A stretch of DNA of 25,253 nt from a virus, in the IMG/VR virus record IMGVR_UViG_3300030104_005368, positions 1-25,253 of that record. One strand, written 5' to 3'. Of this stretch, positions 2,754 to 25,069 are shown piece by piece. How positions within the stretch are numbered: the stretch's first letter is position 1; the number at the start of each line of letters is the position of its first letter. The translations under genes and the position numbers were made by a program. The notes below the pieces were generated by a model. It saw nothing but the letters and a program-made list of their open reading frames with translations. It ran no database searches and had not been told where the DNA came from.

Positions 2754-2778
2754 GAGATCTCCCTTGTAAGCAGTGCGA

Positions 2779-2802
2779 GAAGCCGCCCACCCCGGCGGCT
2801 TC
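2779..2802 (-). other. Perfect 9-bp hairpin upstream of the UDG gene
   Basis: GAAGCCGCC and GGCGGCTTC flank a 6-nt loop, giving a GC-rich stem in the 58-nt gap before the UDG start. No U-tract follows on either strand. It may slow transcription, mark an mRNA processing site or protect the 3' end of the upstream message. The structure is seen directly; the role is unknown. Confidence 0.6.
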
Positions 2803-2811
2803 GCTGCACGA

Positions 2812-3000
2812 CTACTCGTCTACTTCTCGAAGCAACTCGTCGGCTTCGATCTCATCGGAAGCAAGGCCGCACTCGATGAGGTGTTGAACGATCTGTTCGT
2901 AGTTGTAGCCAAGAACAATGCGGCAGTGTTCTACCTTGGTGGTGATCTCATTCAATCTCTTGCTCTCCTGTGCCATCATGCGAAGTATATCTGATGTCAT
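2812..3000 (-). CDS. Small hypothetical protein (62 aa)
   Basis: Not recognised. The product begins MTSDILRMMAQESKRLNE and ends in an acidic stretch (SDEIEADELLREVDE). The predicted character is helical, and YNYEQIVQHLIECGL looks like an amphipathic helix. The frame stays open to an earlier ATG at 3048, but that one has no SD, while the ATG at 3000 has AGGGAG about 7 nt upstream, so I chose the shorter form. It overlaps the 3' end of the sigma-like gene by 53 nt in another frame, so translation is probably coupled to it. It lies between the sigma-like factor and the UDG, suggesting a small accessory to either transcription or DNA metabolism (inference only). Confidence 0.65.
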   Translation of the reverse strand: MTSDILRMMAQESKRLNEITTKVEHCRIVLGYNYEQIVQHLIECGLASDEIEADELLREVDE

Positions 3001-3499: not shown

Positions 3500-3505
3500 G
3501 ACTCA

Positions 3506-3514
3506 AGTGTATCA
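3506..3514 (-). promoter_or_regulatory. Candidate extended -10 promoter for the sigma-like gene
   Basis: TG-A-TACACT matches an extended -10 element (TGn plus a 4/6 match to TATAAT). No good -35 lies 16-18 nt upstream, which extended -10 promoters tolerate. Transcription would begin at or next to the ATG at 3499, giving a leaderless message. Its position just after a terminator supports a need for a new promoter here. Confidence 0.4.
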
Positions 3515-3557
3515 AAGAAAGGCAACGTCCTATTTTTGATTCGACAGTAGGCACAAC

Positions 3558-3593
3558 AAAAAAAGCCCTCACACCCGCGAGGAGCATGAGGGC
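3558..3593 (-). terminator. Rho-independent terminator
   Basis: Reading the minus strand, GCCCTCA and TGAGGGC form a 7-bp stem that is followed immediately by seven T residues. It lies 18 nt after the stop of the 109-aa gene at 3611-3940 and upstream of the sigma-like gene, so it ends the 3.6-8 kb operon and isolates the sigma/UDG/polymerase unit. It is the clearest terminator on the minus strand in this window. Confidence 0.85.
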
Positions 3594-3610
3594 CAGAGGG
3601 ATGAAGATCT

Positions 3611-3940
3611 TTACTTGGAAGCAGGGTCACCATTATGAAGAAGGTTGATGCCGCCTGAAACCACGTTACCCGGAATGTCATTCCCTTCTCGAATGACCTT
3701 GGCGTTGTTGACGACACTGCTCTTCTTGGCCTCCTCTGCTTCTGCCTCATCAATGAGTTCTTGAAGAGCTTCGTGCTTGGCTCGTGTGATGAGATGTTCA
3801 GTGAGTGCTTCGAGGATCGTGTTGATGTGGTGCCCTGTCTTGTGGAGTTCGCTTACAAACTCCATCCCTTCCTTGGTGCTGAGGTCACCTTCGAAGGTCT
3901 CCTTGAACAGGTCAAGGATCTGTTTCCTGATGTGTTCCAT
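3611..3940 (-). CDS. Hypothetical helical protein (109 aa)
   Basis: Not recognised. The product is mainly alpha-helical in character: an amphipathic N-terminus (MEHIRKQILDLFKETFEG), then a long charged helix with an Ala/Glu-rich stretch (LQELIDEAEAEEAKK) that could form a coiled coil, and a Gly/Asn-rich tail. AGAGGAGG 9 nt before the ATG makes the start secure. That SD and the first 29 nt lie inside the 3' end of the upstream gene, implying translational coupling. This is the last gene before the terminator at 3558-3593. No signal peptide or membrane segment is visible. Confidence 0.75.
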   Translation of the reverse strand: MEHIRKQILDLFKETFEGDLSTKEGMEFVSELHKTGHHINTILEALTEHLITRAKHEALQELIDEAEAEEAKKSSVVNNAKVIREGNDIPGNVVSGGINLLHNGDPASK

Positions 3941-4238
3941 TGCGGTATTCCTCCTCTTTCTTTATTGAGAATGGTGTGATTGATCGGGCCTTACTCCAGT
4001 CATCAACCACGTAGCGAGTTCCCCATGCACCAGCAGGTAGTTGGTGGTGGATGAAACTTGCGACGGAGTAGATGGACTCGAGTTCTTCTGTGTTTGCACA
4101 AAGAACTGCAGATACAAAGTCGTTCTTGAGTGCTCGATGCAGGAAGGCTGAAGGCTTGGTCCCAATCTCGAACCAAGCGATCAGCTGTTCCTTGATATGT
4201 GGGGGCATGAGTTTGTCATAGCCTTCGAAGTTCATCAT
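3912..4238 (-). CDS. Conserved phage protein of unknown function (108 aa)
   Basis: The pattern (GTKPSAFLHRALKNDF, then VSAVLCANTEELESI, then HHQLPAGAWGT and a tryptophan) resembles a small protein I know from many phage genomes: a Gly-x-Pro segment, FLxAxLxNDLxxAVxxA, and a closing P-x-x-x-W-G-[ST]. I know no assigned function. The start at 4238 forms an ATGA overlap with the stop of the upstream membrane-peptide gene, so I prefer it to an earlier ATG at 4328 that has no support. The C-terminus (SIKKEEEYRNGTHQETDP) is charged and overlaps the next gene by 29 nt. The central family resemblance is moderate. Confidence 0.72.
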   Translation of the reverse strand: MMNFEGYDKLMPPHIKEQLIAWFEIGTKPSAFLHRALKNDFVSAVLCANTEELESIYSVASFIHHQLPAGAWGTRYVVDDWSKARSITPFSIKKEEEYRNGTHQETDP

Positions 4239-4354
4239 CGGTTGGTAGTCTCCAGCATCATGGCGTAAAGCATTGAGCCAAAGAATACAACCCCGAACAT
4301 CAGAAGTGCAAACTCGATGATGCGACACATCTTTTCGAATGCAGCGCGTGACAT
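4235..4354 (-). CDS. Single-pass membrane micro-protein (39 aa)
   Basis: A very small protein with one strongly hydrophobic helix at about residues 12-33 (IIEFALLMFGVVFFGSML) after a short basic N-terminus, which predicts a cytoplasmic N-terminus. AGGGAG sits in the last codons of the upstream gene, about 9 nt before the ATG at 4354. An ATGA overlap links it to the gene after it. It lies in the DNA-metabolism arm rather than among late genes, so a lysis holin role is doubtful. A membrane-anchored takeover or exclusion role is equally possible. No family is recognised. Confidence 0.65.
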   Translation of the reverse strand: MSRAAFEKMCRIIEFALLMFGVVFFGSMLYAMMLETTNR

Positions 4355-4355
4355 G

Positions 4356-4550
4356 CTATCGCTCTCCCTTTTGCTTGAGCTGAGCCCAGTAGTTGAACAC
4401 TGCCTTTGACTCCTTCTTGTCCACCCAGAACTCACTCATGAGGAAGTCTGGTGCAGCAAGCATGTTGGTCTTGCCTGAAGCTTGAAGGTTGTCGAGGAAG
4501 GTGAGCATCTTGTCGAGCTCCTCCACCTCAGGCTTTGATGTTGCAGTCAT
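4356..4550 (-). CDS. Small hypothetical protein (64 aa)
   Basis: Not recognised. It is charged and probably helical (SKPEVEELDKMLTFLDNLQ at the N-terminus, KAVFNYWAQLKQKGER at the C-terminus). The ATG at 4550 overlaps the stop of the DUF932-like gene as ATGA, and its own stop lies one base before the next ATG. It therefore sits inside a tightly coupled run. No signal peptide, metal motif or membrane segment is visible. Confidence 0.7.
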   Translation of the reverse strand: MTATSKPEVEELDKMLTFLDNLQASGKTNMLAAPDFLMSEFWVDKKESKAVFNYWAQLKQKGER

Positions 4551-5371
4551 GAGAAGTTGCCTCCACTTGTGAGTTGGGGGGTGAGCCCGACATACTGGTC
4601 GAGCAGCTTGGTAAGCCTGCTTGTGCGTGCAGGCTGGACGGCAGGTGATGGTCTGTTCTTTGCAACTTCAGTGAAGCAGTTGAGCAAGGACCAGTAACTG
4701 TTGCCAGACAGTTCAGAGTGACCACCGGGTCCTTCACCTGCGATGGAACGATCCCACTCACGGATGACGTGAGGGATGTGGGTTGCAGTCACTGCCTGAT
4801 ATCTGAGTGCAGTGATAAGGATGTCGTTGAACGCGGTGCTGTCTTTGACTGCGTTGTGCTTGTAGACTCCGTACCGTTCGTTGACTCCCTCCATGTAGTC
4901 ATGGAGCTGGGTGAAGTTGTCGTAGATGACACGGGGCAGGTCACGAATGACGTTGCGAGTGTGTCGTCTGCTGAACTGCATCATGTCACCGTAGAAGGCC
5001 ATGTTGTCACAGACGAAACAACTCTGACCAAAAGCAGCAGAGGCAGGGATCTGACCGTCGTGACCATTCCTGATCCCGAGAGTGAAGTCGTAGATGTTGT
5101 TGCCATCGGAGTCTGTGGGAACTCCACAGTTGTTACTGGGATCCTTGATCTTGAAGTACCCGAAGTACCGCTGCTTCCTCTTCATGAGAGCGTGAGCTTC
5201 TTCGACAACCTGAAGGTTGAAGTCATCCAGAACTTCGAGGACTTGATTCACGAGGGTGGCGTGAGGCACTGGTGTGTATGTGTCACTGGTGATGCTGTCT
5301 TCGACGACGACGCTGCATACGTCGTCCCAAGTTGCGTGGCTTGCACCGCAGTGCAGCATGAGGCCATTCAT
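4547..5371 (-). CDS. DUF932-like phage protein (274 aa)
   Basis: Resembles the DUF932 / phage-plasmid-like family, whose members occur in phages and plasmids; their biochemical role is not settled. Recognisable parts are the central beta-rich FGYFKI segment, DFTLGIRNGHDGQIPASAAF with FGQSCFVCDNMAFYGD, and SRRHTRNVIRDLPRVI. The middle segments match the conserved 'NSHDGS ... VCxNG' core of DUF932. The frame is open to an ATG at 5449, but the ATG at 5371 has GGAG 8 nt upstream and overlaps the preceding stop as ATGA, so I start there. The last 40 residues are Ser/Pro-rich and less conserved in look. It is coupled at both ends by 4-nt overlaps. Confidence 0.75.
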   Translation of the reverse strand: MNGLMLHCGASHATWDDVCSVVVEDSITSDTYTPVPHATLVNQVLEVLDDFNLQVVEEAHALMKRKQRYFGYFKIKDPSNNCGVPTDSDGNNIYDFTLGIRNGHDGQIPASAAFGQSCFVCDNMAFYGDMMQFSRRHTRNVIRDLPRVIYDNFTQLHDYMEGVNERYGVYKHNAVKDSTAFNDILITALRYQAVTATHIPHVIREWDRSIAGEGPGGHSELSGNSYWSLLNCFTEVAKNRPSPAVQPARTSRLTKLLDQYVGLTPQLTSGGNFS

Positions 5372-5631
5372 ATTTCGGACTCCAATGAGGGTACGATGGT
5401 GGCAGTGCAACCATCTGACTTTGTTTGCTTCTGCATGGTCTGCTTCCATGCAGTGTAGATGTTGAGGACTGTGACCTCATTGCCCTGTGCAAGAATCATC
5501 GGTTGTTTGATTGGAAGGCAGGAATCAAAATCATTCCGAATGATATGGGGCATGAGGGGTGAAGCAGGCTCTACCCACATCTCGTAGAGCCTGTTGTTGA
5601 TGTGGAATGCACCCTTGAGGGTAGTGGTCAT
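5368..5631 (-). CDS. Hypothetical protein (87 aa)
   Basis: Not recognised. The N-terminal half has alternating hydrophobic residues suggesting beta structure (TLKGAFHINNRLYEMWVEP), and the middle contains PMILAQGNEVTVLNIYTAW. Its start at 5631 forms an ATGA overlap with the preceding gene, and its stop overlaps the DUF932-like start in the same way. An earlier in-frame ATG at 5676 lacks that coupling and would overlap the upstream gene. Position suggests a partner of the DUF932-like protein (inference). Confidence 0.65.
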   Translation of the reverse strand: MTTTLKGAFHINNRLYEMWVEPASPLMPHIIRNDFDSCLPIKQPMILAQGNEVTVLNIYTAWKQTMQKQTKSDGCTATIVPSLESEI

Positions 5632-6080
5632 GCGACTCTTTCTTTGTGGTAGCGGACACGTACTGATGTGAACCAAGTGTCCTCATCGTGAGGATTGATG
5701 CCGTGATGTCGAACTCTGGTGATGGGCTTACGCTCATTGACAGGGCATCGAACGTCACGGGCTGCGTGGTCAGGATGTTCTCGAAGGCCAAAGCCACGTC
5801 GCCTGATGTTGGTCCGGGAGTACAAGCTGGGAGGAGATGGCAGCTTGTTGGTGGTACCAGTGAGCATTGATGCTGCATTGAGCAGATCTTGCTCTTCAGG
5901 CGATGAGGTTTGAATCTCGAAGTCATCATCGTCAGACCAATACGCATAGTCGCCAAGTGCATCGGGGGACTGCGGATTGGGGTCAGCATGGACATCAAAA
6001 GAATCGGTCTCAGCTACGGGTACGTTGCCGAAGGATCCGAGGTCGGATGCAGCGACAGCGTGTGCTCTTCGTATAGTCAT
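5628..6080 (-). CDS. Hypothetical acidic-to-basic protein (150 aa)
   Basis: Not recognised. The N-terminal half is acidic and probably disordered (SDDDDFEIQTSSPEEQD). The C-terminal half is strongly basic, with Arg/His clusters (NIRRRGFGLREHPDHAARDV, then ERKPITRVRHHGINPHDED) that might bind nucleic acid. Three close ATGs are possible (6095, 6086, 6080). I chose 6080 because AAGG lies 6 nt upstream of it. A GTG at 6134 lies inside the stem of the 15-bp hairpin at 6102-6144 and is unlikely. Its stop overlaps the next start as ATGA. Confidence 0.6.
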   Translation of the reverse strand: MTIRRAHAVAASDLGSFGNVPVAETDSFDVHADPNPQSPDALGDYAYWSDDDDFEIQTSSPEEQDLLNAASMLTGTTNKLPSPPSLYSRTNIRRRGFGLREHPDHAARDVRCPVNERKPITRVRHHGINPHDEDTWFTSVRVRYHKERVA

Positions 6081-6101
6081 GGTCATCCTTGACATGAAAG
6101 T

Positions 6102-6144
6102 GGACAGGTCAGTGAGGTATGTAGGTACGCTCACTGACCTGTCC
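6102..6144 (-). other. Perfect 15-bp intergenic hairpin
   Basis: GGACAGGTCAGTGAG (6102-6116) and its exact complement (6130-6144) flank a 13-nt loop, just upstream of the 150-aa gene. A smaller hairpin, ACAGTCAA-CGC-TTGACTGT (6155-6173), covers the stop codon of the preceding gene, so two stems stand in tandem. Neither has a U-tract. Roles could include an mRNA stability or processing site, or a dyad bound by a protein as DNA. Confidence 0.7.
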
Positions 6145-6158
6145 TTGGCTGTACACAG

Positions 6159-6635
6159 TCAACGCTTGACTGTGAGGTTGGGCTTCTTGGTGGAGTCGTG
6201 AGGTGCGGCGGCCTTGAAGGTCTCACCCTTGGCGAGAGCACGGGGCTTCTCCTTGATGTCCACGTTGCGCCACTCACCGGACTCGATGACGTGGATCCAG
6301 CACTGACCACCGATCAGGCAGCTGAAGTCGAATCCACCCTGACCAAGCATGAACTTGCTGAAGTCAGCGAGCTTGTCACTCTGGTCAGTTGCATTGAGGT
6401 ATGCAACAACCTTCTGCTTGGCAATGTCACGGACTGCGTTCTTGGGATGCTCGAAGTTGAGGCGATCAAGAACCTGCTTGTTGATGCCATCATCAACGAC
6501 ATTGCAGACGATGGTGATGGAGAGGGGTTCACCGGGCTTGGATGCAGTGACGTTGGAGATGTCACAGGCATAGCCACCTGCGGACACGGGAGCGTCCACG
6601 TCGATGAACTGAGTACGATTAAGGATCAAAGTCAT
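6159..6635 (-). CDS. DUF669-like phage protein (158 aa)
   Basis: Tentatively DUF669-like, a family often next to phage recombination or replication genes and suspected of single-strand DNA handling. The pattern seen is a beta-rich N-terminus (TQFIDVDAPVSAGGYACDI), V-D-D-G followed by LDRLNFEHPKNAVRDIA, then AYLNATDQSDKLADFSKFM and a terminal beta section with WIHVIESGEWRNVDIKE. The C-terminal tail (FKAAAPHDSTKKP) is polar and basic. The ATG at 6635 has AGAAAG about 8 nt upstream. Hairpins stand on both sides of the gene. The family call rests on pattern memory and is moderate at best. Confidence 0.5.
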   Translation of the reverse strand: MTLILNRTQFIDVDAPVSAGGYACDISNVTASKPGEPLSITIVCNVVDDGINKQVLDRLNFEHPKNAVRDIAKQKVVAYLNATDQSDKLADFSKFMLGQGGFDFSCLIGGQCWIHVIESGEWRNVDIKEKPRALAKGETFKAAAPHDSTKKPNLTVKR

Positions 6636-6670
6636 GATGTTGTCTTTCTAAAAGAGTAGAAAAGGTGAGA

Positions 6671-6707
6671 GGGGAATACTTCCCCCCGGCCACACGGCGG
6701 GGGGAAG
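6671..6707 (-). other. Overlapping alternative hairpins between genes
   Basis: On the minus strand, CTTCCCCCCG pairs perfectly with CGGGGGGAAG (10 bp, 9-nt loop). The second arm can instead pair with the following TTCCCC, separated by 3 nt. The two structures exclude each other, an arrangement seen in attenuators. They lie about 35 nt before the start of the DUF669-like gene. No T-run follows. Confidence 0.5.
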
Positions 6708-6730
6708 TAGGCCCACAAAGTAGGAAGGGG

Positions 6731-7093
6731 TTAGACCGGGATCTTGTCACCAGCTAGTGTGGTATCAGGAGGGAAGTATCGAGCGTCTTGATCGGACACT
6801 CTCATGTTGCATTCGAGCTTGCGAAGGACGTACCTGAACTCGGGCAGTTCAGTCCAGCCCTTGTGATCGAGCCACTCAAGCTGTGCATTGTCACCATCGT
6901 GCATCATGATCTTGTTGATGAGCCATGCTTCTTTGTTATGGACCATGGCATAGGCAGCAACAAGTGCATCGCCAATGTTGTCGAAGATCGACATTGATGG
7001 CAGTTCTTCGAGGGTCTCCTCTTCATGGTCACGATTCCAGATGACAGTGAAGACCACTGGTTGATAGAAGGTCTTTGATTCACGCAAAGGCAT
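6731..7093 (-). CDS. Hypothetical protein (120 aa)
   Basis: Not recognised. It begins MPLRESKTFYQPVVFTVIW, followed by an acidic loop (NRDHEEETLEELP), a helix with GDALVAAYAMVHNKEAW, and a polar C-terminus. It is probably a small globular alpha/beta protein, with no membrane segment or metal motif. The frame extends to an ATG at 7147, but only the ATG at 7093 has a good SD (GGAG, 7 nt), so the shorter form is used. A 10-bp hairpin precedes it and another follows it. Confidence 0.65.
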   Translation of the reverse strand: MPLRESKTFYQPVVFTVIWNRDHEEETLEELPSMSIFDNIGDALVAAYAMVHNKEAWLINKIMMHDGDNAQLEWLDHKGWTELPEFRYVLRKLECNMRVSDQDARYFPPDTTLAGDKIPV

Positions 7094-7136
7094 GTTGATT
7101 CTCCATTGGACAATTTGATTCCCCGCCTTTGGGGGA

Positions 7137-7166
7137 GGGGAGTCCAAGCGTCAGCCTGGACTCCCC
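7137..7166 (-). other. Perfect 10-bp intergenic hairpin
   Basis: GGGGAGTCCA and TGGACTCCCC flank a 10-nt loop, 7 nt after the stop of the 145-aa gene. A further C-rich/G-rich pairing (7122-7140) follows it on the minus strand. There is no U-tract, so it is not a classical intrinsic terminator. Confidence 0.6.
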
Positions 7167-7172
7167 GTAGAC

Positions 7173-7610
7173 TCAAGGACAGTTAGCGACCTCGACGGAG
7201 GTGCCGTACTTCGGGACGAGTTGCGTGTCGCTCGTCGGCATCAGGTCGCCGATCTGCGTGTTGCGTGCGTTGCGGTTCACTCGGTCGATGACGACTGTGA
7301 TCTCCGGCTGGTCCTCGAACTGGATCTCGAATCGGCTGCTGCCGTCCGGCTGCTGGGTGACTGCGTTCTCGTCAGCTGCGAGGCTGTTTGCTCGATCCAA
7401 GATGGATGCGACCTGTTCGAGGCGCGTGTTGAATGCGCGACGTGCGCCCGCGTGTGATTCGGGGGTGACCCAGCTGAGCAGGGCACCGCGATCGGTACGG
7501 AGTTCGACCACGGTGGTGCCGTCGTGCTGCGCCACAGCCACGGACTGGACGATGCAGGTGGTGGCGTGGTCGGTGGTGTTGTCACGAAGTGAAGTGATGT
7601 CGAAAGTCAT
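7173..7610 (-). CDS. Hypothetical protein, GC-rich (145 aa)
   Basis: Not recognised. The N-terminal third shows alternating hydrophobics (ATTCIVQSVAVAQHD, TTVVELRTDRGALLSWVTP), the middle is helical (ARRAFNTRLEQVASILDRAN), and the C-terminus returns to beta (SRFEIQFEDQPEITVVIDRV). AGGAG 6 nt before the ATG settles the start. Base composition is unusual: two sampled 60-nt lines (7201, 7321) are 65% GC against about 53% in the terminase gene, with many G/C third positions. This may indicate more recent acquisition. Strong hairpins stand on both sides. Confidence 0.7.
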   Translation of the reverse strand: MTFDITSLRDNTTDHATTCIVQSVAVAQHDGTTVVELRTDRGALLSWVTPESHAGARRAFNTRLEQVASILDRANSLAADENAVTQQPDGSSRFEIQFEDQPEITVVIDRVNRNARNTQIGDLMPTSDTQLVPKYGTSVEVANCP

Positions 7611-7656
7611 TGAAAGCTCCTAGAAAGGGGAAATGTGAAAGAAAACAAGAGAGGGA

Positions 7657-7686
7657 GACGACTCCCCCGTGAACACGGGGGTCGTC
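7657..7686 (-). other. GC-rich intergenic hairpin
   Basis: CCCCCGTG and CACGGGGG form an 8-bp stem that extends by five further pairs (GACGA with TCGTC) past a two-base bulge. It lies 10 nt after the stop of the 86-aa gene. The minus strand continues pyrimidine-rich (TCTCCCTCTCTTGTTTTC) but without a clean T-run; weak terminator activity is possible. Confidence 0.55.
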
Positions 7687-7695
7687 GCCCGGAGG

Positions 7696-7956
7696 TCAGG
7701 AAAGTTCGATGAGCTTCGCGTTGGGCGAAGGCATGTCGTAGTCGCCGACAGTGAGGGTGAGTTGGTACTTGATCCACTCACGGATGCTCTTCGCTTGGTC
7801 CTTGTAGAACGCAAGGCAGTCTTCGGCTTGTTCTCTGGTGACGAAGAAGAGAGGAGGCAGAGGGGGATCGCAATCCCACTGAACGTCAATGCGGAACTTG
7901 TGCTCCGGCCTGCGCTCCTCGTACTTCTTGCGAAAGTTAGAATCGTTCCAGTCCAT
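7696..7956 (-). CDS. Hypothetical protein (86 aa)
   Basis: Not recognised. The product begins MDWNDSNFRKKYEERRPEHK, with FRIDVQWDCDPPLPPLFFVT in the middle and a helix REQAEDCLAFYKDQAKSI before an aromatic/acidic C-terminus. The frame is open much further upstream, but the upstream part is a Pro/Ser/His-rich, non-protein-like stretch. GGAG 7 nt before the ATG at 7956 supports the short form. It is the first gene after the long non-coding gap, so its promoter probably lies in that gap. Confidence 0.65.
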   Translation of the reverse strand: MDWNDSNFRKKYEERRPEHKFRIDVQWDCDPPLPPLFFVTREQAEDCLAFYKDQAKSIREWIKYQLTLTVGDYDMPSPNAKLIELS

Positions 7957-8346
7957 GGCGTACTCCAGTGAGTGTGAGAGAAAGGTAGAGGGACTCCCCT
8001 CTGACCAGAGGCAGAGGGGTGACCCGCACGGGGTACGACCGGGTAGTGGTGGTGGACACGGGGTGTGCAGGTGTGTGGTTCCGGGGTACGAACTAGGACG
8101 ATGTGAAGGTAGACTGGGTACCACTGGCTTCTGGTGCGTAGTTGTGCCGAAGATTGTTTGAGTTATGTGTCAACCCCGTCGGCCCCCTGCGCGTGTGTTG
8201 TGTTTGTTGACGTAACACCCCATCTTTCTAGAAATTTTCTATACCGGCAATACCAAGGGGTCCTTCCCTTTATAGAGAGAAAAGATATAAAAGGGATAGG
8301 GACACCGTGGAGCGTCCGGTATCCCCCCACTGGTCAGATTGTTGGG
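7957..8346. other. 390-bp non-coding region with candidate regulatory sites
   Basis: Longest stretch without a convincing gene. It contains an 8-bp hairpin CCCCTCTG/CAGAGGGG (7996-8019), a GT-rich run (8041-8090), a perfect minus-strand TTGACA (8168-8173) with no matching -10 at 16-18 nt, the palindrome TTTCTAGAAA (8225-8234), and an A+T-rich inverted repeat CCCTTTATA / TATAAAAGGG (8266-8295) holding TATAAA on both strands. Together these suggest a promoter/operator block for the minus-strand genes at 3.6-8 kb. An origin cannot be excluded, but no iteron set is visible. Confidence 0.5.
8266..8295. repeat. A+T-rich inverted repeat
   Basis: CCCTTTATA and TATAAAAGGG are inverted with one unpaired A, around an 11-nt purine loop. 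The match continues imperfectly outward (CCT on the left, AGG on the right). A TATAAA occurs on each strand at the arms. It is the most promoter- or operator-like element in the long intergenic region. Confidence 0.45.
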
Positions 8347-8583
8347 TCAGTCCATCTCGCCATGGAAATAGTGGACCAGATACTGCAGAGTCGCTTTCTT
8401 CAAAGCCACTTCCTGCGGATCCAAAGCCTTGGGTGTTTGAGGCAACACCTGTGGGTCATCCGGCCCCGAAATGATGAAGGTGGGCTGCTCCTGATCGCGC
8501 AGATACTCTAGCACCTGCAGGGCAGCCGACACCTTCTGGGTAATGGGGGGAGACACCTTCATGTTAATTTCAGGCTTGTCCAT
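8347..8583 (-). CDS. Small hypothetical protein coupled to the helicase (78 aa)
   Basis: Not recognised. It has a polar N-terminus (MDKPEINMKVSPPITQK), a helix (VSAALQVLEYLRDQEQP), a Pro/Asp-rich middle and a helical end (EVALKKATLQYLVHYFHGE). Its ATG shares one base with the TAA stop of the helicase gene (TAATG), so it is very likely translated by re-initiation after the helicase. It may be a helicase accessory such as a loader or primase-like partner, but no motif supports this. Confidence 0.7.
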   Translation of the reverse strand: MDKPEINMKVSPPITQKVSAALQVLEYLRDQEQPTFIISGPDDPQVLPQTPKALDPQEVALKKATLQYLVHYFHGEMD

Positions 8584-10010
8584 TAATGCTCGTCATCATA
8601 CTCCCTCTTCAAGGTCATGCCAGCAACACCACGGTGATGTCCCTCATTTTGGGACAGCCTTGTCTGCCTCAGATCCCATGAACAGTCCTGAGCAATCCGC
8701 TGGATCAGCATGTTGCGGGGAACGTGCATCTTGACTTTGTTTGCCCGCAGCCAACTTTCCCACTGACTCCTGACAATCTCATTGGCAGTAAACCCACTCT
8801 CGTTCCTGATGAACCGAGCCTCCAAGAAGCTGTCGAAGGGGTTGTTCTGCAGGTGATACAGACGGATCGCGTTCTTGCCCGCCTCAGGAACAGGCCACTT
8901 GTTGTCCCGATCAGACCCCTCAAGCTCAATCGCACCACGAACAGCCCATGCTGCAATGCCGGGGATCTCCTTCTTCAAATCCGCATCCAGCTCAAAATCC
9001 TCACGACCCTCAAAGCTGACATCAAAAGGCAGAACCAACATCTTGCCGGACAATCCACGGCCCTTGTTGGGCAGAACTGGGATCTCGTTGGACTGCATCA
9101 GCGGCGCAGCCCCAACAGTCACGTTTCTGAGCTGCCTTCGGTACTTCACATTCACAGTCATGGGGTCACGGCCCACGATGTTCTTGAGTATCCGACAAAC
9201 CCTTTCCCCTGACTTGCTGTCAATCTCTGAAACCTCGCTGATACTCAGCACCTTGCTCAGTTCCAAACCGTCCAGCCCGAACTCGTTTGCCAGATCCTCC
9301 AACGACGTACTCAGATAAGTGGTCGGGCCGGTCAACTGCTTCAACACACTGCAGATTGTGCCCTTGCCACCACGGATCTTGCCGTACATCAACAGCCACT
9401 TCGCATACTTGCGCGTGCCCATCAAACAATACCCAAACCAACGCTGCAGCAAACGACCCCACTCAGGATCTCCGTTGCCCCATTCGTGCAATGCCTTTTC
9501 CCAACGAGGACACTCAGCATCAGGATCAATCCCACACGGAATAACCGACGTATCAAACCATCGCTGGTCTCTGTCTTTCATTACCCAAGACTCAGAAGTG
9601 CTGTTTTTGATGTCGATGATGTGATCTTGGAACGCAATACAATGTGCTGGATCAATATGTTGTTCCTGTGGTATGATCCAACAAGGAACCTCTTCCTTGT
9701 CTAGCCGACATAGAGCTTCCAAAGCATTGACGACACCCTCGATCTTGTTTTTGTCGGGGGCATAGCGTCTGATGACAGGACCGTTTGCGGTAAATTGTTC
9801 CCAAACCGCATCTTCCAAGATGAGCAGTACCCGCTCACGGATCTTGTCTTCACGAAGAATCTCCCACTGTTGACCGTCCCAGTGCCAAAACTCTCCCCTC
9901 CACCGATACAAACCTTGATGTCCTGACGATCCTGTGAAATAATCACGAAGTACTCGCCTACCAACTTTGATAGGCTCCAGTGATTCCAACGGGTTATTGT
10001 TCCAGTTCAT
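8583..10010 (-). CDS. SF3-type D5/P4-like helicase (primase-associated)
   Basis: Replication helicase of the phage/plasmid P4 C-terminal, D5 type. The N-terminal about 195 residues (RWRGEFWHWDGQQWEILRED, then a Trp/Asp-rich middle) match the D5_N region. The ATPase follows: Walker A G210-KIRGG-K216-G-T, a Walker B-like KVLSISEVSE (253-262), and motif C SNEIPVLPNKG with N308, ending KMLVLPF. No N-terminal primase catalytic motif is visible, so priming would need another protein. The usual Arg before the final strand of the core is replaced by GLSGK (319-323). AAGGGA 5 nt before the ATG supports the start, and 475 aa is a normal length for a helicase-only form. It is the first gene of the minus arm, 23 nt from the divergent plus-strand gene. 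Confidence 0.88.
   Translation of the reverse strand: MNWNNNPLESLEPIKVGRRVLRDYFTGSSGHQGLYRWRGEFWHWDGQQWEILREDKIRERVLLILEDAVWEQFTANGPVIRRYAPDKNKIEGVVNALEALCRLDKEEVPCWIIPQEQHIDPAHCIAFQDHIIDIKNSTSESWVMKDRDQRWFDTSVIPCGIDPDAECPRWEKALHEWGNGDPEWGRLLQRWFGYCLMGTRKYAKWLLMYGKIRGGKGTICSVLKQLTGPTTYLSTSLEDLANEFGLDGLELSKVLSISEVSEIDSKSGERVCRILKNIVGRDPMTVNVKYRRQLRNVTVGAAPLMQSNEIPVLPNKGRGLSGKMLVLPFDVSFEGREDFELDADLKKEIPGIAAWAVRGAIELEGSDRDNKWPVPEAGKNAIRLYHLQNNPFDSFLEARFIRNESGFTANEIVRSQWESWLRANKVKMHVPRNMLIQRIAQDCSWDLRQTRLSQNEGHHRGVAGMTLKREYDDEH
9915..9943 (+). promoter_or_regulatory. Candidate sigma-70 promoter for the plus-strand arm
   Basis: TTGATG and AATAAT are separated by exactly 17 nt (4/6 and 5/6 matches to consensus). 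The site lies inside the helicase coding sequence and would start transcription about 85 nt before the first plus-strand gene. The 23-bp hinge itself has no room for a promoter. Chance matches of this quality are common, so support is modest. Confidence 0.3.
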
Positions 10011-10033: not shown

Positions 10034-10285
10034 ATGTCGAATCCCATAGATCAGATTATTGCTCTTGCTGCTAAGCGGAAAACAAAAAAGGGCATGAAGC
10101 CGATGGAGCGGTTGTTTACCACGAGTGGCCGCAGAGCAGGCAATACCTTCAACTCATCCAGAAAGCTCGATCTTCGTACTCCCGATAAGCGAGATGCGTT
10201 TCTGACTGCAAACGAAAGAAAAGAAAAGGCCCGTAAGAAGAGGCTTGAAAATCTTCTTAACAGCTTTGGTGCAGGAGCCCGCTGA
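10034..10285 (+). CDS. Small basic hypothetical protein (83 aa)
   Basis: Not recognised. It is strongly basic with a short helical start (SNPIDQIIALAAKRKTKKG) and a Lys/Arg-rich C-terminal helix (FLTANERKEKARKKRLENLL). There are no cysteines and no membrane segment. The composition suggests nucleic-acid or tail-of-protein binding, possibly disordered in part. GAGG lies 8 nt before the ATG. It is the first gene of the plus arm and is divergent from the helicase. Confidence 0.7.
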   Translation: MSNPIDQIIALAAKRKTKKGMKPMERLFTTSGRRAGNTFNSSRKLDLRTPDKRDAFLTANERKEKARKKRLENLLNSFGAGAR

Positions 10286-12219: not shown

Positions 12220-12475
12220 GTCCATCGCCCGTAGTGGGGGGCCTATCCTGCAGGAGCTCGGCATCCGTGATCCAGCACACTGGGCCGGTAGCGCAGGCAA
12301 CCTTGGTGAAAGGATCCGCACTGAGGTTCTGGACGACACTCACTTCAAGGACAGGTATGTCCATGTAGCCAACTTCCTTGCTGAAAACAGCTACATGAGT
12401 GACAACATCGAATATCTGTCTGCATTGATCCTTCGTGCAGCTGCAGTGAATCTGCTTGGAAAGCATCCTTCGTGA
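12092..12475 (+). CDS. Hypothetical protein before the large terminase (127 aa)
   Basis: Not recognised. The first 40 residues are Ser/Thr/Pro/Lys-rich and overprint the end of the previous gene by 128 nt; the remaining part is globular and helical (GVQALNRILTLDRESIARS, RYVHVANFLAENSYMSDNI, SALILRAAAVNLLG). AAGGAGA 6 nt before the ATG at 12092 is one of the best ribosome sites in the window, and there is no good in-frame alternative start further down, so the long overlap appears genuine. It ends in a GTGA overlap with the large terminase. A packaging-related role, possibly the true small terminase, is an alternative. Confidence 0.65.
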   Translation: MSSPTTKNHTSRPSTSQPKKPERPKLGRRGVQALNRILTLDRESIARSGGPILQELGIRDPAHWAGSAGNLGERIRTEVLDDTHFKDRYVHVANFLAENSYMSDNIEYLSALILRAAAVNLLGKHPS

Positions 12476-14415
12476 AGGTTGCACCAGTTCCGATGAAGGA
12501 TCAGGGTAATCCTCTTTACCCTCTTCCTCCCGACTATCTTGAGCTGACACCCGAAGGGCAACGACTGTCTCGGGTGAACGCATGTCGTCAGTGGATGGTG
12601 CAGCACAACGACCCGCAAAGGAAAGCAACGGCCTTTGCGTCAGCTGTGCAGTTCTTCGATACGTACTATCTGTACCCTGACGATGAAGCAGAGTTCTATC
12701 CCATGTTCTATGACGATACTCCACTGGAGCCGCCGCTAGGACACTTTGCCATCTACAGGTTGTGGGCTCTGTCGCGTCGAGCGATCGTGGTTGCTCCCCG
12801 TGGTTTCGCAAAGAGCAACTGCATTCGCAAGTCTGCACTGCTGCAAATGCTTTCGAGGCCGGGGTACTCTTTCATTTACGCAACATCGTCTCATGACAAT
12901 GCAGCCCAGACTGCACAGATACTGAAGACGCAGTTCACGGACAACAGCAGGATCTATGACGACTTTGCTCCCGAATCTCCGGGTGGCCGCATTACGCCCA
13001 AACGTGGTGAAAAGTCATTCGGTATCGAGCTGATGTACCTTGATAATGGATCTTGGTTCAGAAGTCTTTCTGCAGAGTCGAGACAGCGTGGTGGTCGTCC
13101 TCAGTGTTATCTTCTTGATGACCCTGAATACGACGGTAGGGCCGGAACATCTCTCTCGTTGCTTCGTTCTTACATGGAACAGCTTCTCTTCAAGGTGGTC
13201 ATGCCCATGGTGACCCGAAGAGACACCAGCGTTAGGTGGCTGGCTACTTTTGTGTCAAGGAGGCACTATGCGTGGCACGCGATGGATACTGAAGAAACTG
13301 CCTCTGGGCATCGTTCTAGGGACCCTCGTTTTGACGAGTGGAGCCGTCTTGTACTCAAAGCGGAGTATCGAGACGAAGACGGAGATCGTCATTCTTGTTG
13401 GCCTGTTATGTGGCCTCTTACTGACTCCGACAAGGCAAAAGACGATCGACTGAAAGATGCGGTTTCCCTTGAGCAGATCAAGCGACTCATCGGATCTGCA
13501 AACTACGCTGCCGAGTACATGGCCGAACCGGGTCAGGCAGAGGACCAGCACTTCGGAACCCTCGAAGAAACAAAGCATGGTTGGTGGACTGAAGAGCCTG
13601 ACGGTGAAGATCCCATCAACAGCAAGACCCTCATGTGTTGGCATGACAAGGACGGCAACAAGAACTCCGAAAGCCTTGCCAACTTCCTGAGGAATCGAGT
13701 CCGAACCTTCATTACCTGCGACACTTCCTACACTAGCACCAAGGATTCCGACTACAAGGTGGCAACCCTGATGGGGTACGATCTTGTTGAAGCTTCTCTC
13801 TTCGTGTTGGATTGTTGGGCGGGACAGACCCGAGAGTCGGTCTTGATCACCAAAGCATTCCAGATGGCACAGCGGTGGGGGTGCAAGTCCATCCACCCCG
13901 AGGTCGTATCTCAGTCTGTCTCTCTTTACAACACGATGCAATCAATCGTGAAGCAGAGAGCTGTGGAGATGGCCGGTGTTCAGGAGCTTCCGAGGATCGT
14001 GCCCCTTAGGGTGGGCCAGATGGACAAGACTTCCAAGATCAACGCCCTCGGATTCAGGTTTGAGCATGGCTTGATCAAGATGCCCCTTCGAAGACGGTAC
14101 GACAGCCCGTGGTCCATGCTTTTCAACCAGATCGACGAGTTCAACCCAGACGCACCCAGTGGGGGGCTCCAGCACGACGATGTCCTTGACACCGTTTCCA
14201 TGTCGATGTTCATCGTCAAGGGCCGACAGTACGCCACCAAGAAACTTGATGACCCTGTGGATCCTTGGGAGCAGATCCGCAAAGGAATCACAGTCGATCC
14301 CAACTCAGGACTGAACTACGTAGAGTCCTTGGATCCTTCAAAACTGACCCCAGAACAAGTGTCGGAGCTATTCAATGCAAGACAATCAGGAACCGATTCA
14401 GGATCAAAAGTCTGA
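12472..14415 (+). CDS. terL: Terminase large subunit
   Basis: ATP-driven DNA packaging motor and nuclease that fills the procapsid through the portal. ATPase: Walker A-type APRGFAKSN (K114) and Walker B CYLLDDPE (D216, D217, E219). Nuclease: FITCDTSYTSTKDSDYK supplies D417 and a second acidic pair, E477 lies in HPEVV, and GGLQHDDVLD (D569, D570, D573) gives the last metal ligand. The length (647 aa) is normal. The GTG at 12472 overlaps the previous stop as GTGA; an ATG at 12493 is possible but lacks a well-spaced SD. The downstream small gene overlaps its 3' end by 41 nt, followed by the portal, the usual packaging order. Confidence 0.95.
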   Translation: MKVAPVPMKDQGNPLYPLPPDYLELTPEGQRLSRVNACRQWMVQHNDPQRKATAFASAVQFFDTYYLYPDDEAEFYPMFYDDTPLEPPLGHFAIYRLWALSRRAIVVAPRGFAKSNCIRKSALLQMLSRPGYSFIYATSSHDNAAQTAQILKTQFTDNSRIYDDFAPESPGGRITPKRGEKSFGIELMYLDNGSWFRSLSAESRQRGGRPQCYLLDDPEYDGRAGTSLSLLRSYMEQLLFKVVMPMVTRRDTSVRWLATFVSRRHYAWHAMDTEETASGHRSRDPRFDEWSRLVLKAEYRDEDGDRHSCWPVMWPLTDSDKAKDDRLKDAVSLEQIKRLIGSANYAAEYMAEPGQAEDQHFGTLEETKHGWWTEEPDGEDPINSKTLMCWHDKDGNKNSESLANFLRNRVRTFITCDTSYTSTKDSDYKVATLMGYDLVEASLFVLDCWAGQTRESVLITKAFQMAQRWGCKSIHPEVVSQSVSLYNTMQSIVKQRAVEMAGVQELPRIVPLRVGQMDKTSKINALGFRFEHGLIKMPLRRRYDSPWSMLFNQIDEFNPDAPSGGLQHDDVLDTVSMSMFIVKGRQYATKKLDDPVDPWEQIRKGITVDPNSGLNYVESLDPSKLTPEQVSELFNARQSGTDSGSKV

Positions 14416-19930: not shown

Positions 19931-20080
19931 GTGCCCAACACAGTAGTAGTCAGTTCTACTGATCCCCCCACAGTAACTGTTACTCCGGCAGACTCTCTTA
20001 CTGTTTCGGTTACACAAGAGGCGGGCCCCACGGTTGCGGTCAGCAAGACCGATCCCCCCACGGTCACGGTGAGTGCGACT
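19931..20080 (+). repeat. Five 30-nt (decapeptide) tandem repeats
   Basis: The first 50 codons split exactly into five units: MPNTVVVSST, DPPTVTVTPA, DSLTVSVTQE, AGPTVAVSKT, DPPTVTVSAT. Positions 4 (Thr), 5 (Val), 7 (Val) and 8 (Ser/Thr) are constant. Units 2 and 5 share DPPTVTV, with a common GATCCCCCCAC in DNA. The beta-strand/turn periodicity suits a fibre shaft. Confidence 0.85.
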
Positions 20081-20743
20081 GCTCCGGGATTCAGCGCGGC
20101 GAATGCGCGGGACTCCGTGTCAGCTACCAGCCCTCTTTCGTACAACAGCAGCACGGGTGTCTTCTCTTACACCGAAGCAACTCACGTATTGAATGACCTG
20201 ACCAACGTGTCAGTGTCTTCTCCCGGTATCCACGAATACCTCAAGTGGAATGGGGTAAGTGCTTGGGTTCCAGATGCTATTGAGATTGCCCACGTCACCA
20301 GCCTCCAATCGACGTTGGATGGTAAGGCTGCTTCTAGCCACACCCACAGCATCTCAAACGTCACCGACCTCCAAACCACTCTTGACTCCAAGAAAAACAA
20401 GGAAGTCATCGGAATCACGGTGGACGGCGGAGGCACGGTTCTGACTGCTGGGGTAAAGGGGCACAGGAGAATTCCATACGCCTGCACAGTGAAGCAGATC
20501 AACCTAATCTGTGATCAAAGCGGCAGCGTATCCTTCACGATCAGAACCCGAGCAAGCGGGGCAATCACTGGAACCTCTGCCACGACTGACGTGGTTGCAG
20601 TGTCCAGTGCTCAGACCGCAGAGATTACATCCGGGTTTGATGACGCAACGATTGCTGCTGATGACATGTTCGAGTTTGAGATTACAGGAACCCCGGCTAC
20701 AGTCACACGAGCTACTGTGATGGTTGAACTAGAAGAAAGTTGA
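19931..20743 (+). CDS. Tail fibre-like protein with decapeptide repeats (270 aa)
   Basis: Probable fibre or tip protein that contacts the host surface. It begins with GTG, with GAGG 6 nt before it and 3 nt between it and the previous stop. The first 50 residues are five ten-residue repeats. The middle holds two fibre-type motifs, HVTSLQSTLDGKAASSHTHS and NVTDLQTTLDSKK, of the 'L-x-x-x-L-D-x-K' type seen in trimeric fibres. The C-terminal about 110 residues (GITVDGGGTVLTAGVKGHRR, then SGSVSFTIRTRASGAITGT) are beta-rich and may be the head domain. Receptor specificity cannot be read from sequence. It is linked to the beta-helix gene by 3 nt. Confidence 0.75.
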   Translation: MPNTVVVSSTDPPTVTVTPADSLTVSVTQEAGPTVAVSKTDPPTVTVSATAPGFSAANARDSVSATSPLSYNSSTGVFSYTEATHVLNDLTNVSVSSPGIHEYLKWNGVSAWVPDAIEIAHVTSLQSTLDGKAASSHTHSISNVTDLQTTLDSKKNKEVIGITVDGGGTVLTAGVKGHRRIPYACTVKQINLICDQSGSVSFTIRTRASGAITGTSATTDVVAVSSAQTAEITSGFDDATIAADDMFEFEITGTPATVTRATVMVELEES

Positions 20744-22202: not shown

Positions 22203-22322
22203 ATGAAGTACACAGTCAAGACTGGCGCAATGCCCAAGAAGAAGAAGAAGATGAAGGTGAAGTCGGGAAAAGCGACTGCGGCTGCAAGCACTAAGCCGCC
22301 AAGGATGATGGGTGGGTATTGA
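22203..22322 (+). CDS. Lysine-rich micro-protein (39 aa)
   Basis: Not recognised. The product is MKYTVKTGAMPKKKKKM followed by a Lys/Ala/Thr-rich middle and RMMGGY. AAGGA lies 7 nt before the ATG, a convincing ribosome site for so small a gene. The stop shares bases with the next ATG (TGATG). Its charge suggests binding to DNA or to acidic capsid surfaces. It is the first member of a five-gene coupled run of basic proteins. Confidence 0.65.
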   Translation: MKYTVKTGAMPKKKKKMKVKSGKATAAASTKPPRMMGGY

Positions 22323-22471
22323 TGGCTAAGGATGCTTGCTATCACAAAGTCAAAGCTCGATACCGCGTGTTTCCCTCGGCCTATGCTTCCGGTGCTCTTG
22401 TAAAGTGCCGCAAAGCAGGGGCAGCTAACTGGGGCAACAAAAGTAAGAAGAAGCTCAAGGTCAAGAAGTAA
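22322..22471 (+). CDS. Basic micro-protein with KCRKAGAANWGNK motif (49 aa)
   Basis: The short pattern FPSAYASGALVKCRKAGAAN followed by WGNKSKKK is one I know from small proteins of marine or environmental phages and some larger viruses; I know no function. Two cysteines (C6, C29) are present, and the C-terminus is Lys-rich. It overlaps the previous stop (TGATG) and the next start (TAATG), so all depend on coupling. Length is short compared with the longer proteins in which I have seen the motif, where it sits near the C-terminus. Confidence 0.7.
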   Translation: MAKDACYHKVKARYRVFPSAYASGALVKCRKAGAANWGNKSKKKLKVKK

Positions 22472-22725
22472 TGGCTACCAAGTTCAAGCTTGAAAAGTCA
22501 AAAGGTCTTCGTGGTTGGTTTGCTCGTAACAAGGGCAAGGGTTGGATTGATTGCAAAACGGGCAAGCCCTGTGGTCGGAAGTCTGCCACTGGGGGGAGCT
22601 CAAGACCCTACCCTGCGTGCAGACCAACCAAGGCCATGTGTACAACTGCGGCTAAAAAGAAGACAGGTCCTGCCAAGATCTCTTGGAAAAAGAAGACCAA
22701 AAAGAAGTACAAGGTGGTTAAGTAA
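22471..22725 (+). CDS. Basic small protein with PCGRK..YPACRPT motif (84 aa)
   Basis: Contains WIDCKTGKPCGRKSATGG and RPYPACRPTKAMC, a Cys/Gly/Pro-rich pattern found in small viral proteins (DUF5872-like by memory, not checked). Five cysteines (CKTGKPC, CRPTKAMC region) could bind a metal or form disulfides. The C-terminus is a Lys-rich tail (AKKKTGPAKISWKKKTKKK). It is coupled by TAATG at both ends. Function is unknown; position in the late arm suggests a virion or DNA-condensing component (inference). Confidence 0.7.
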   Translation: MATKFKLEKSKGLRGWFARNKGKGWIDCKTGKPCGRKSATGGSSRPYPACRPTKAMCTTAAKKKTGPAKISWKKKTKKKYKVVK

Positions 22726-23015
22726 TGGCTGATAAGACTCAAATTTTGCTACGTCTTCTTTCTCGCCTTAAACCACGACGTAAAGATACATCGGAGTTTA
22801 TGGACTTTAGCACGCGGACTGGACCTCCAGTAGAGCACTCTCCGATCCGTATTGACCGAAATGCTTTTACAAGCAAGCCGACTCGTCCAGACTTACTTTT
22901 TCTTGAGACCCCAGCTACAAAAAAGAAAATTCAAAAGCTTCTCGAAGCCCCTTATCCAAGCAAGAAGTTTGACAAGCTTTACGCTGAACTTATGAAAAAG
23001 ACAAAGAAGAAGTAA
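22725..23015 (+). CDS. Basic hypothetical protein, AT-rich (96 aa)
   Basis: Not recognised. The N-terminus is an amphipathic basic helix (TQILLRLLSRLKPRRKDTSE), the middle is Pro-rich (STRTGPPVEHSPIRIDRN; KPTRPDLLFLETPATKK), and the end is Lys-rich (YAELMKKTKKK). Two sampled lines (22741, 22921) are 38% and 37% GC, well below the neighbours, so it may be a later insertion into the coupled run. It nevertheless keeps TAATG junctions at both ends. Confidence 0.7.
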   Translation: MADKTQILLRLLSRLKPRRKDTSEFMDFSTRTGPPVEHSPIRIDRNAFTSKPTRPDLLFLETPATKKKIQKLLEAPYPSKKFDKLYAELMKKTKKK

Positions 23016-23260
23016 TGGCTGCAAAGATCAACAAGAAGACCATGCCGTGCAACAAGCCACGGAACCAACGAACCAAGACCAAGAAGTTCGTGGTGAAGGC
23101 TTGCCAGAACGGTCAGGAAAAGATCATCCGCTACGGCGATGCTAATATGACCATCAAGAAGAACCGGCCTGCTCGACGCAAGTCATTCCGGGCCAGACAC
23201 AATTGTGCTACGGCCACCAACAAGCTGAGTGCTCGTTACTGGTCCTGCAAGAAGTGGTAA
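23015..23260 (+). CDS. Basic small protein with RHNC..ARYWSCKKW ending (81 aa)
   Basis: The C-terminal pattern IRYGDANMTIKKNRPARRKS, then FRARHNCATATNKLSARYWS and CKKW, is one I know from small proteins in varied phages and viruses, with conserved Cys, Arg/His and Trp; I know no function. Four cysteines in all (MPCNKPR, KACQNG, HNC, WSCKKW) suggest a metal-binding or disulfide core. It begins in a TAATG overlap and ends the basic cassette; the next gene has its own strong SD. Confidence 0.75.
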   Translation: MAAKINKKTMPCNKPRNQRTKTKKFVVKACQNGQEKIIRYGDANMTIKKNRPARRKSFRARHNCATATNKLSARYWSCKKW

Positions 23261-23849: not shown

Positions 23850-24128
23850 ATGAGTAACCTCGTCAGAATGCTGAAGCTGGCCCGAGGCTTCAAGCCCGAA
23901 CTTTCTACCCGAGAGGTTCGGAAGCTCCTCGAAGCTACCAAGAAGGAAGGCCAAGCTATGCGAATTGGCGACTATGACGAGGCTGATATGTACAGCATGA
24001 AGGTGGCCCCACTGCTGAACAAGCTCTTCATGGAAGGTACGGACAAGGTCACTAGACGGCAGAACATGGGGATCCGAGAGAACCTCGACGACATCCTTGA
24101 CATGTTTATCAGAGGCGAAGGTAGATAA
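23850..24128 (+). CDS. Hypothetical helical protein (92 aa)
   Basis: Not recognised. It is almost entirely helical and charged (SNLVRMLKLARGFKPELST, REVRKLLEATKKEGQAMR, APLLNKLFMEGTDKVTRR). It begins 4 nt after the previous stop and ends in a TAATG overlap with the adaptor-like gene, so it probably acts with that product. No metal, membrane or catalytic motif is visible. Confidence 0.72.
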   Translation: MSNLVRMLKLARGFKPELSTREVRKLLEATKKEGQAMRIGDYDEADMYSMKVAPLLNKLFMEGTDKVTRRQNMGIRENLDDILDMFIRGEGR

Positions 24129-25069
24129 TGCACGCAACCAACTCATTTCTGTACACGGTCATTGAGCGGATCCGAGGTTACTTGGATGACCCGGATCTGG
24201 ATGCCAAGTACTCTGACGACTTCATGATTAGGCATGTCATCATGCCTTCAATGACGAGTGTGGTGTCGCGGGTAAACAACAGCTTGTCGAATCCTGTGGT
24301 GTGCAGGCTTCGTGTTTCGCTGGCTGCAGATCAGCAGTACTACCAGTTGCCCCCCACTGTGGGTGAGGTCTGGTCGGTATGTACCTATAACGCAGACACG
24401 GGGCGTGTTGAAAGAGATACGACTCCTCGGTCGTTTTACTCTCCTAGTGGTCCGAACTGGTCGCTTGAGGGTAACCAGCTCTCCGTGCGTCCGATCCCCA
24501 AAGAGACTCAGGACATCGACATTTTCTATACCCACTCAGGTGACATAATGCTTCACTATGGTGAGGCAGGAAAGCTGACTTCTGATTCGGACAGAAATGC
24601 AAACACTTTGGAGTTGGGAACCGCTACGCTTGGGGCTCACGATTTGAGGCCAAATGCTTACGCAGGTTCAATGCTTCGCATCTTTAGTAGTGGAGCAAGC
24701 CCGAATACTGTTTCTGTTGTTGAAGAACGACTCATTGAAAGCAGCACAATTAGTGCTGCCAAAGGCAATACCAACCTGACGTTGACGACTCGACTGCCAT
24801 TCGACTTTCACTCGGACTCTTCTGCAGTCAAGTACGAGATCGCACCGTTTGGGTTGCAGGCCATGTATGAGGCGGTCGCTGCAGCGGGATCACTGAAGCT
24901 GGCTGCCTACAAGAAGGTCAGCGGCACTCACTACCAGATGATCCAGATGCAGTACAAGGATGCGATGAAGACTGTTTGCGATCACTACGCCAACATGCAA
25001 ATGCGTCTGCCCAAGCACTGGGACAAGGACACTTGGGACAACCACGATAATCTGCAGGTGCTTCCCTAA
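24128..25069 (+). CDS. Head-tail adaptor-like protein (313 aa)
   Basis: Likely connector or adaptor between portal and tail, similar in layout to T7 gp11-like adaptors: an N-terminal helical bundle (FLYTVIERIRGYLDDPDLD, FMIRHVIMPSMTSVVSRVN), a central beta domain (CRLRVSLAADQQYYQLPPTV; NQLSVRPIPKETQDIDIFY) and a closing helical part (LQAMYEAVAAAGSLKLAAYK, YKDAMKTVCDHYANMQMR). The order after the tail-tip cluster and before another tail gene is compatible. The call is structural pattern only. It starts in a TAATG overlap and ends the same way with the next gene. Confidence 0.55.
   Translation: MHATNSFLYTVIERIRGYLDDPDLDAKYSDDFMIRHVIMPSMTSVVSRVNNSLSNPVVCRLRVSLAADQQYYQLPPTVGEVWSVCTYNADTGRVERDTTPRSFYSPSGPNWSLEGNQLSVRPIPKETQDIDIFYTHSGDIMLHYGEAGKLTSDSDRNANTLELGTATLGAHDLRPNAYAGSMLRIFSSGASPNTVSVVEERLIESSTISAAKGNTNLTLTTRLPFDFHSDSSAVKYEIAPFGLQAMYEAVAAAGSLKLAAYKKVSGTHYQMIQMQYKDAMKTVCDHYANMQMRLPKHWDKDTWDNHDNLQVLP

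Follow-up and report, generated by a model that had tools for sequence, protein, structure and literature searches.

Small late proteins such as IPI-III of phage T4 and gp6.7 and gp7.3 of phage T7 are thought to be held inside the phage head. Tlr6f, which is the same family as DUF5754 (PMC12220804), is conserved across almost the whole range of polinton-like viruses, in several virophages, in many giant viruses and in some phages, and for ten years it has been listed as a small protein of no known function that is common to very different DNA viruses (PMC4642659). DUF5872 has been reported in giant viruses, and CpV-BQ1 has proteins of both the DUF5754 and the DUF5872 type (PMC12085832). In the literature on DUF5872, DUF5754, DUF6321 and Tlr6f, we found nothing that gave a function or linked these families.

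In this study, we analyzed a 25,253-base virus record from IMG/VR, here called the window, in which an early arm (2007-10010) lies on the minus strand and a late module occupies the plus strand from about 10 kb onwards. Its features are listed below.

2007-2753, minus strand, uracil-DNA glycosylase, early arm
2948-3499, minus strand, sigma-factor-like protein (weak), early arm
4547-5449, minus strand, DUF932, early arm
8583-10010, minus strand, D5-type primase/helicase, early arm
12472-14415, plus strand, terminase large subunit (phrog_38, 3.7e-37), marking the late packaging and structural module
19931-20743, plus strand, with a phage tail repeat (family match), among the fibre-like genes after the putative capsid gene
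22203-22322, plus strand, g1, 39 aa, lysine-rich orphan, first of the coupled genes (K+R 31%, pI 10.7)
22322-22471, plus strand, g2, 49 aa, module SAYAS, corresponding to the N-terminal half of DUF5872 (K+R 31%, pI 10.4)
22471-22725, plus strand, g3, 84 aa, module PCGR, corresponding to the C-terminal half of DUF5872 (K+R 32%, pI 10.7)
22725-23015, plus strand, g4, 96 aa, basic orphan (K+R 25%, pI 10.3)
23015-23260, plus strand, g5, 81 aa, module YWSC, probably related to Tlr6f/DUF5754 (K+R 30%, pI 11.2)
24128-25069, plus strand, head-tail adaptor-like protein downstream of the small genes (PF24175 SU10_adaptor, 9e-5, 23.4 bits, below the cut-off of 27)

The terminase gene is followed by genes for proteins of 665 aa, 305 aa (acidic) and 520 aa, which we took, from their size and order only, as putative portal, scaffold and major capsid proteins; then come the fibre-like genes, the five small genes and the adaptor-like gene. 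A search of 50,697 phage records gave no relative of the putative capsid gene and only distant ones of the terminase. Thus, the window appears to represent a lineage without an isolate in these records. A sixth very basic small gene (10034-10285; 83 aa, pI 11.4) lies ahead of the terminase as the first gene of the late module and had no family match in Pfam or PHROGs.

The five small genes follow each other by one-base stop/start overlaps (TGATG between g1 and g2, TAATG between g2 and g3, g3 and g4, and g4 and g5). The first-pass annotation of this DNA had proposed five coupled genes of 39, 49, 84, 96 and 81 aa, and their coordinates and sizes proved exact. Its description of the products as strongly basic agreed with the values across g1-g5 (K+R 25-32%, pI 10.3-11.2), and the three cysteine-containing motifs that it quoted were found in g2, g3 and g5. 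It also suggested that the five genes form one assembly, which was supported for g2, g3 and g5, whereas the unity of all five was not supported. g1 had no family match in Pfam or PHROGs and g4 had none in Pfam, PHROGs or phages, and relatives of both orphans were confined to the near-identical contig IMGVR_UViG_3300030372_003879; thus, the conserved unit is g2+g3+g5 rather than five genes, and these three are old genes.

The pattern of the SAYAS module (g2) is DACYxKVKxRYxxxPSAYASGALVKCRKxGAxNWGNK. g2 matched phrog_727 (1.2e-20) and also phrog_38880 and phrog_3477, and its relatives were present in 365 phage records, nearly all of them cyanomyoviruses in which the module lies within a longer ORF. 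The PCGR module (g3) has the pattern LxxWFxxNxGxGWxDCKTGKPCGR..YPACRPTxxxC, and g3 itself had no direct match in Pfam or PHROGs. The YWSC module (g5) is characterized by CNKP..KAC..RFGD..RRKSFRARHxC..ARYWSCKxW; g5 matched phrog_7595 (2.5e-18) and had relatives in 56 phage records. Judged by their hundreds of relatives in viral contigs (at least 587-596 confirmed for each of g2, g3 and g5), these motifs are more than chance.

DUF5872 (PF19197) is a fusion of SAYAS (profile positions 1-47) and PCGR (55-112), the same two modules in the same order as g2 and g3. In the window, however, the halves are separate genes with a one-base overlap, and each stays below the Pfam cut-off of 27.5 bits: g2 matched positions 12-47 with 18.2 bits and g3 gave no match. 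The g3 homologue in Prochlorococcus phage P-SCSP2 matched positions 55-112 with 53.3 bits, and 32 of 93 SAYAS/PCGR relatives matched DUF5872 at E <= 0.01. While the window has the DUF5872 order, cyanomyovirus polyproteins have it reversed within one chain. A natural g2+g3 fusion (L151) gave a poor structure model (pLDDT 61). Proteins similar to phrog_27331 (KRKFKVYPSAYANAYAVKVCK; L248:5588-5755 and L171:6405-6581) form a variant of the g2 module, poor in cysteine or shifted, and iterative profiles merge them with it. Homology among the g2-, g3- and g5-type modules was rejected (hhalign <=0.3%), and the highest value for any pair outside g5/DUF6321 and the g2 variant was 11% (g3 type versus CWKGY).

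We then asked how the three modules are distributed relative to each other. Eighty viral contigs were fetched with g3 alone, and modules were scored by profiles built from viral-contig relatives; the loci counted are among the matches listed in similarity scans, include near-duplicates, and several are cut at contig ends. Among the matches listed, a g2 relative was present in 77 of the 80 contigs, nearly always just upstream, and 65 of the 80 also had either a g5 relative (31) or DUF6321 (34), with none carrying both, although about 13 would be expected to do so if the two were independent (by-hand estimate). SAYAS preceded PCGR in all plus-strand viral loci having both as separate genes, including the window, and the reverse was never seen. 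Where an ATG could be assigned, the exact one-base overlap of g2 and g3 recurred in 78 of about 116 standalone pairs. An independent replicate came from a g3 scan of 84,980 prokaryote species, a collection absent from profile building: its 11 loci comprised 10 real matches and one chance match, and all 10 real matches had SAYAS upstream together with exactly one of YWSC (five) or FCARM, the DUF6321 module (five). A cellular origin of the kit was rejected, because 10 of these 11 loci were short phage-like contigs of marine MAGs or SAGs with the same kit. The motif families are therefore viral and belong together, as the first-pass annotation had supposed. For g3, the finding was the opposite of motifs lying mostly alone and scattered, the outcome named beforehand as speaking against a common system; the association was weaker for g5, with 22 of 80 loci showing g5 only among the matches listed (many loci cut short at contig ends).

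Among recognized families, terminase, adaptor, major head and structural proteins predominated as neighbours of the kit. Separate small kit genes lie between the portal and major head genes in Roseobacter phage CRP-902 and between the scaffold and capsid genes in the Prochlorococcus podovirus P-SCSP2, and in cyanomyoviruses one polypeptide (PCGR-SAYAS-CWKGY-FCARM) is encoded between the genes for the small and large terminase subunits. Thus, many unrelated aquatic phages keep g2, g3 and a g5-type protein (or DUF6321) linked, either as coupled genes or as one polypeptide. The first-pass annotation had singled out these genes as its best candidate for an undescribed system; the families are already in Pfam (DUF5872, DUF5754/Tlr6f), but no paper was found that links them. 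Although the families are known as DUFs, we found nothing in the literature that describes the kit or the protease fusion presented below; new here are this fusion of the g5 module and its place within a portal-MuF protein.

DUF6321 (PF19846, FCARM) replaces g5 beside g2 and g3 in about half of the kits and never occurs alongside it. Its last ~35 residues align with the g5 type (hhalign 75%, P 2.5e-5), whereas its N-terminal half is distinct and the family is not in the window; g5 gave no match to the DUF6321 profile, the alignable part being these last ~35 residues only. Both modules are usually C-terminal (FCARM in 86 of 87 cases, YWSC in 117 of 132), and natural intermediates between them exist, for example in loci L151, L113 and L120 (RKKSYCARSGG..ANYWxRKxWxC). 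At least 17 swaps between YWSC and FCARM were counted on the PCGR tree, although the shortness of the sequences makes this tree noisy.

The link of g5 to Tlr6f/DUF5754 (PF19058) runs through intermediates such as the standalone protein of phage NCTB_177, which scored 43.8 bits with DUF5754 (above the cut-off of 27.4) and 33 bits with the g5 (YWSC) profile; 9 of 31 g5-type proteins matched DUF5754 at E <= 0.01. On the other hand, g5 itself scored 11.7 bits, below the cut-off, and the conserved C-terminal RHxC..YWSC part extends beyond the 49-position model. Membership of g5 in this family is therefore likely but not proven. AlphaFold2 predicted a beta hairpin and two helices for g5 (pLDDT 83.2, pTM 0.65). 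This model had no match in the PDB (best Foldseek E 3.1; none with Z >= 2 by VIA-align), and its structural relatives were viral predicted models only, including proteins named XkdF and ICP1 ORF125.

The latter protein, gp125 of Vibrio phage ICP1, consists of an XkdF-family prohead protease (Peptidase_S78_2, residues 36-160, 39.5 bits) followed by a YWSC module (residues 191-259, 37.2 bits; best of 2000 shuffles 10.2). ICP1 records list this protein as the capsid protease, and its gene adjoins those for coat gp122, decoration gp123 and scaffold gp124, the last of which has been confirmed experimentally (PMC10945586). Protease and YWSC occur in the opposite order in Aeromonas phage PhAER-4 and Enterovibrio phage 1.101.O. 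A 1393-aa protein of Aphanizomenon phage CL131 joins portal, YWSC, InPase and MuF in that order. By profile matches, the g5 module is thus shown to be fused on either side of the XkdF-family protease and, in one phage, to portal-MuF. The two domain orders and the third context suggest a mobile module that works at the prohead interior. The protease-fused YWSC modules were hardly basic (net charge per 100 aa -3 to +10, against +25 for standalone YWSC), suggesting that the fold does not bring DNA binding with it and that the shared property is the fold rather than charge. Unlike the ICP1 protein, which bears a g5-type module, g5 of the window is standalone, basic and without such a protease: a profile search found no S78_2 domain of the XkdF prohead protease (PF14550) in the window record. 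The idea that the kit is an obligate companion of XkdF was rejected, since the protease was present in none of 20 separate-kit and none of 15 longer-fusion records.

Based on these data, we propose, with a probability of about 0.45, that g2, g3 and g5 are a portable kit that is made late together with the head and packaging genes and works inside the assembling head, a role that the XkdF protease and portal-MuF fusions appear to support indirectly. The g5 module would serve as a docking module that places its partner in the prohead interior, since the prohead interior is where prohead protease, portal and MuF are active. In the window, its partners would be the non-covalent, co-translated g2 and g3. 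The Lys/Arg-rich parts would contact packaged DNA, so that the products would stay as minor internal head proteins, and disulfides, suggested by the paired turnover of cysteines, might lock the small domains when the particle comes into oxidising water. Several observations argue against a place in the head interior: the 20 separate-kit phages and the window lack a detectable XkdF protease, kit proteins are off the virion table of S-SZBM1, the protease-fused YWSC is hardly basic, and kit relatives also occur in giant viruses, which lack a tailed-phage head.

The same fusion to a protease that acts in the prohead would also be consistent with the kit proteins being assembly factors, making chaperone- or scaffold-like contacts for head building or maturation and being absent from the finished particle. 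The virion table of S-SZBM1 (PMC9146016) lacks the DUF6321 (FCARM) protein 192 and its basic neighbour 194. Phage P-SCSP1u also encodes an FCARM protein, and its cryo-EM structure showed no decoration protein and modelled capsid, portal, adaptor, nozzle and fibre only (PMC10575957), so that any internal kit protein there should be unordered or absent. In contrast, S-CREM2 gp137, a DUF6321-type protein ending in an FCARM-type module, was detected in purified virions (4 unique peptides, 4.1% coverage; the part seen was not stated) (PMC10665884), and the strong positive charge of the standalone forms would suit a lasting contact with DNA; tryptic digestion tests such proteins poorly. We regard a pure assembly role as rather unlikely. 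Less likely still is that the products bind nucleic acids in the infected cell (nucleoid remodelling, late regulation or host takeover), being made late or injected. Their Lys/Arg-rich sequences would fit, as would the presence of Tlr6f/DUF5754 in viruses that lack a tailed-phage head, namely polinton-like and giant viruses (PMC4642659, PMC12220804, PMC12085832), and jumbo-phage fusions such as that of an HD domain with YWSC, but most genomes with recognizable neighbours have the kit in the midst of head and packaging genes, and fusions join the g5 module to prohead protease and portal. This HD fusion is a 514-aa protein (locus L074:2371-3915) with an HD phosphohydrolase domain and a C-terminal g5-type module.

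Zinc-binding minor virion proteins, a metal-binding option that the first-pass annotation had offered, appear quite improbable. g3 and g5 have four cysteines each, and small basic domains are often stabilized by zinc, but the ligands of a four-ligand site should vary together, whereas the cysteines were gained and lost as independent pairs rather than as sets of four. Counting sequences with both, a single or neither cysteine, the two pairs of YWSC gave 75/1/29 and 92/0/13 (in 10 sequences the second pair gives way to an alternative one), those of FCARM 13/1/71 and 12/0/73, the SAYAS pair 172/2/11 and the outer PCGR pair 98/0/81, the inner PCGR pair being invariant. Over eight varying pairs, the phi values were 0.91-1.00. 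This pairing argues for disulfides rather than one four-cysteine zinc site per domain, and a four-cysteine zinc domain is disfavoured, as its ligands do not seem to be conserved together. The counterevidence is weakened by the small number of gain/loss events on the trees (1-6 per pair, yet in four families) and by the fact that a zinc ion bridging two chains would produce the same paired pattern.

In principle, the proposed head-interior kit resembles the internal head proteins of T4 and T7, in that these are also small late proteins, but the window kit shows no T4-type capsid-targeting sequence, no enrichment of prohead-protease sites and no detected sequence relation to them. No core resembling a capsid-targeting sequence was seen by inspection of the window kit genes. 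We rejected T4-like capsid targeting of the cyanomyovirus polyprotein and its cutting into single modules by the prohead protease, as cores resembling the capsid-targeting sequence were no more frequent than by chance in the linkers of 47 fused proteins (8 observed, 7.65 expected). The starts MKSFKSFLSES and MKTFKQYITEA, which we take to resemble the T4 capsid-targeting sequence, were seen in a gene beside the cyanomyovirus fusion (phrog_1742) and in SSZBM1_192, the latter an isolated case (L251, which is S-SZBM1, genes 191 and 192; L245 gene 101).

If g5-type modules act in prohead docking, ICP1 gp125 makes the role of Tlr6f/DUF5754 testable at once, since genetics and a procapsid assembly system are already at hand for this phage; the fusion to a capsid-maturing protease offers a first testable hint at the role of the g5 type. 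More broadly, we tentatively consider it possible, though doubtful, that docking or assembly at the capsid interior is a general viral role of the g5 module (Tlr6f/DUF5754 superfamily), in tailed phages as well as in polinton-like viruses, virophages and giant viruses, and that in aquatic phages it is part of a portable three-protein kit with the DUF5872 halves, with DUF6321 as an interchangeable substitute. Such a kit would account for a set of 'hypothetical proteins' that abound in marine cyanophages and pelagiphages. It also shows how one function may be encoded either as coupled micro-genes or as a single polypeptide.

Finally, the kit proteins of one phage group (loci L092, L113, L115, L120-L125 and L147-L150) share a C-terminal tag, GG..RGQGxVMxNRLR or GGFIAKGCGxVMxxRRKxT, which looks like a sorting or docking tag. 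Over 252 loci, the tag pattern was present in 58 ORFs, comprising 21 of the g3 type, 20 of the g2 type and 17 others, the last being in the listed cases mostly one neighbouring protein of 68-73 aa. A loop resembling an EF hand (ADLNKDGKINSYEE, IDANKDGKISREDF) was observed in the tagged third small protein and in a 41-aa gene of P-SCSP2 (L120:1440-1646, L092:5001-5411 and L248:5761-5886), suggesting that a calcium-binding member may belong to some kits.
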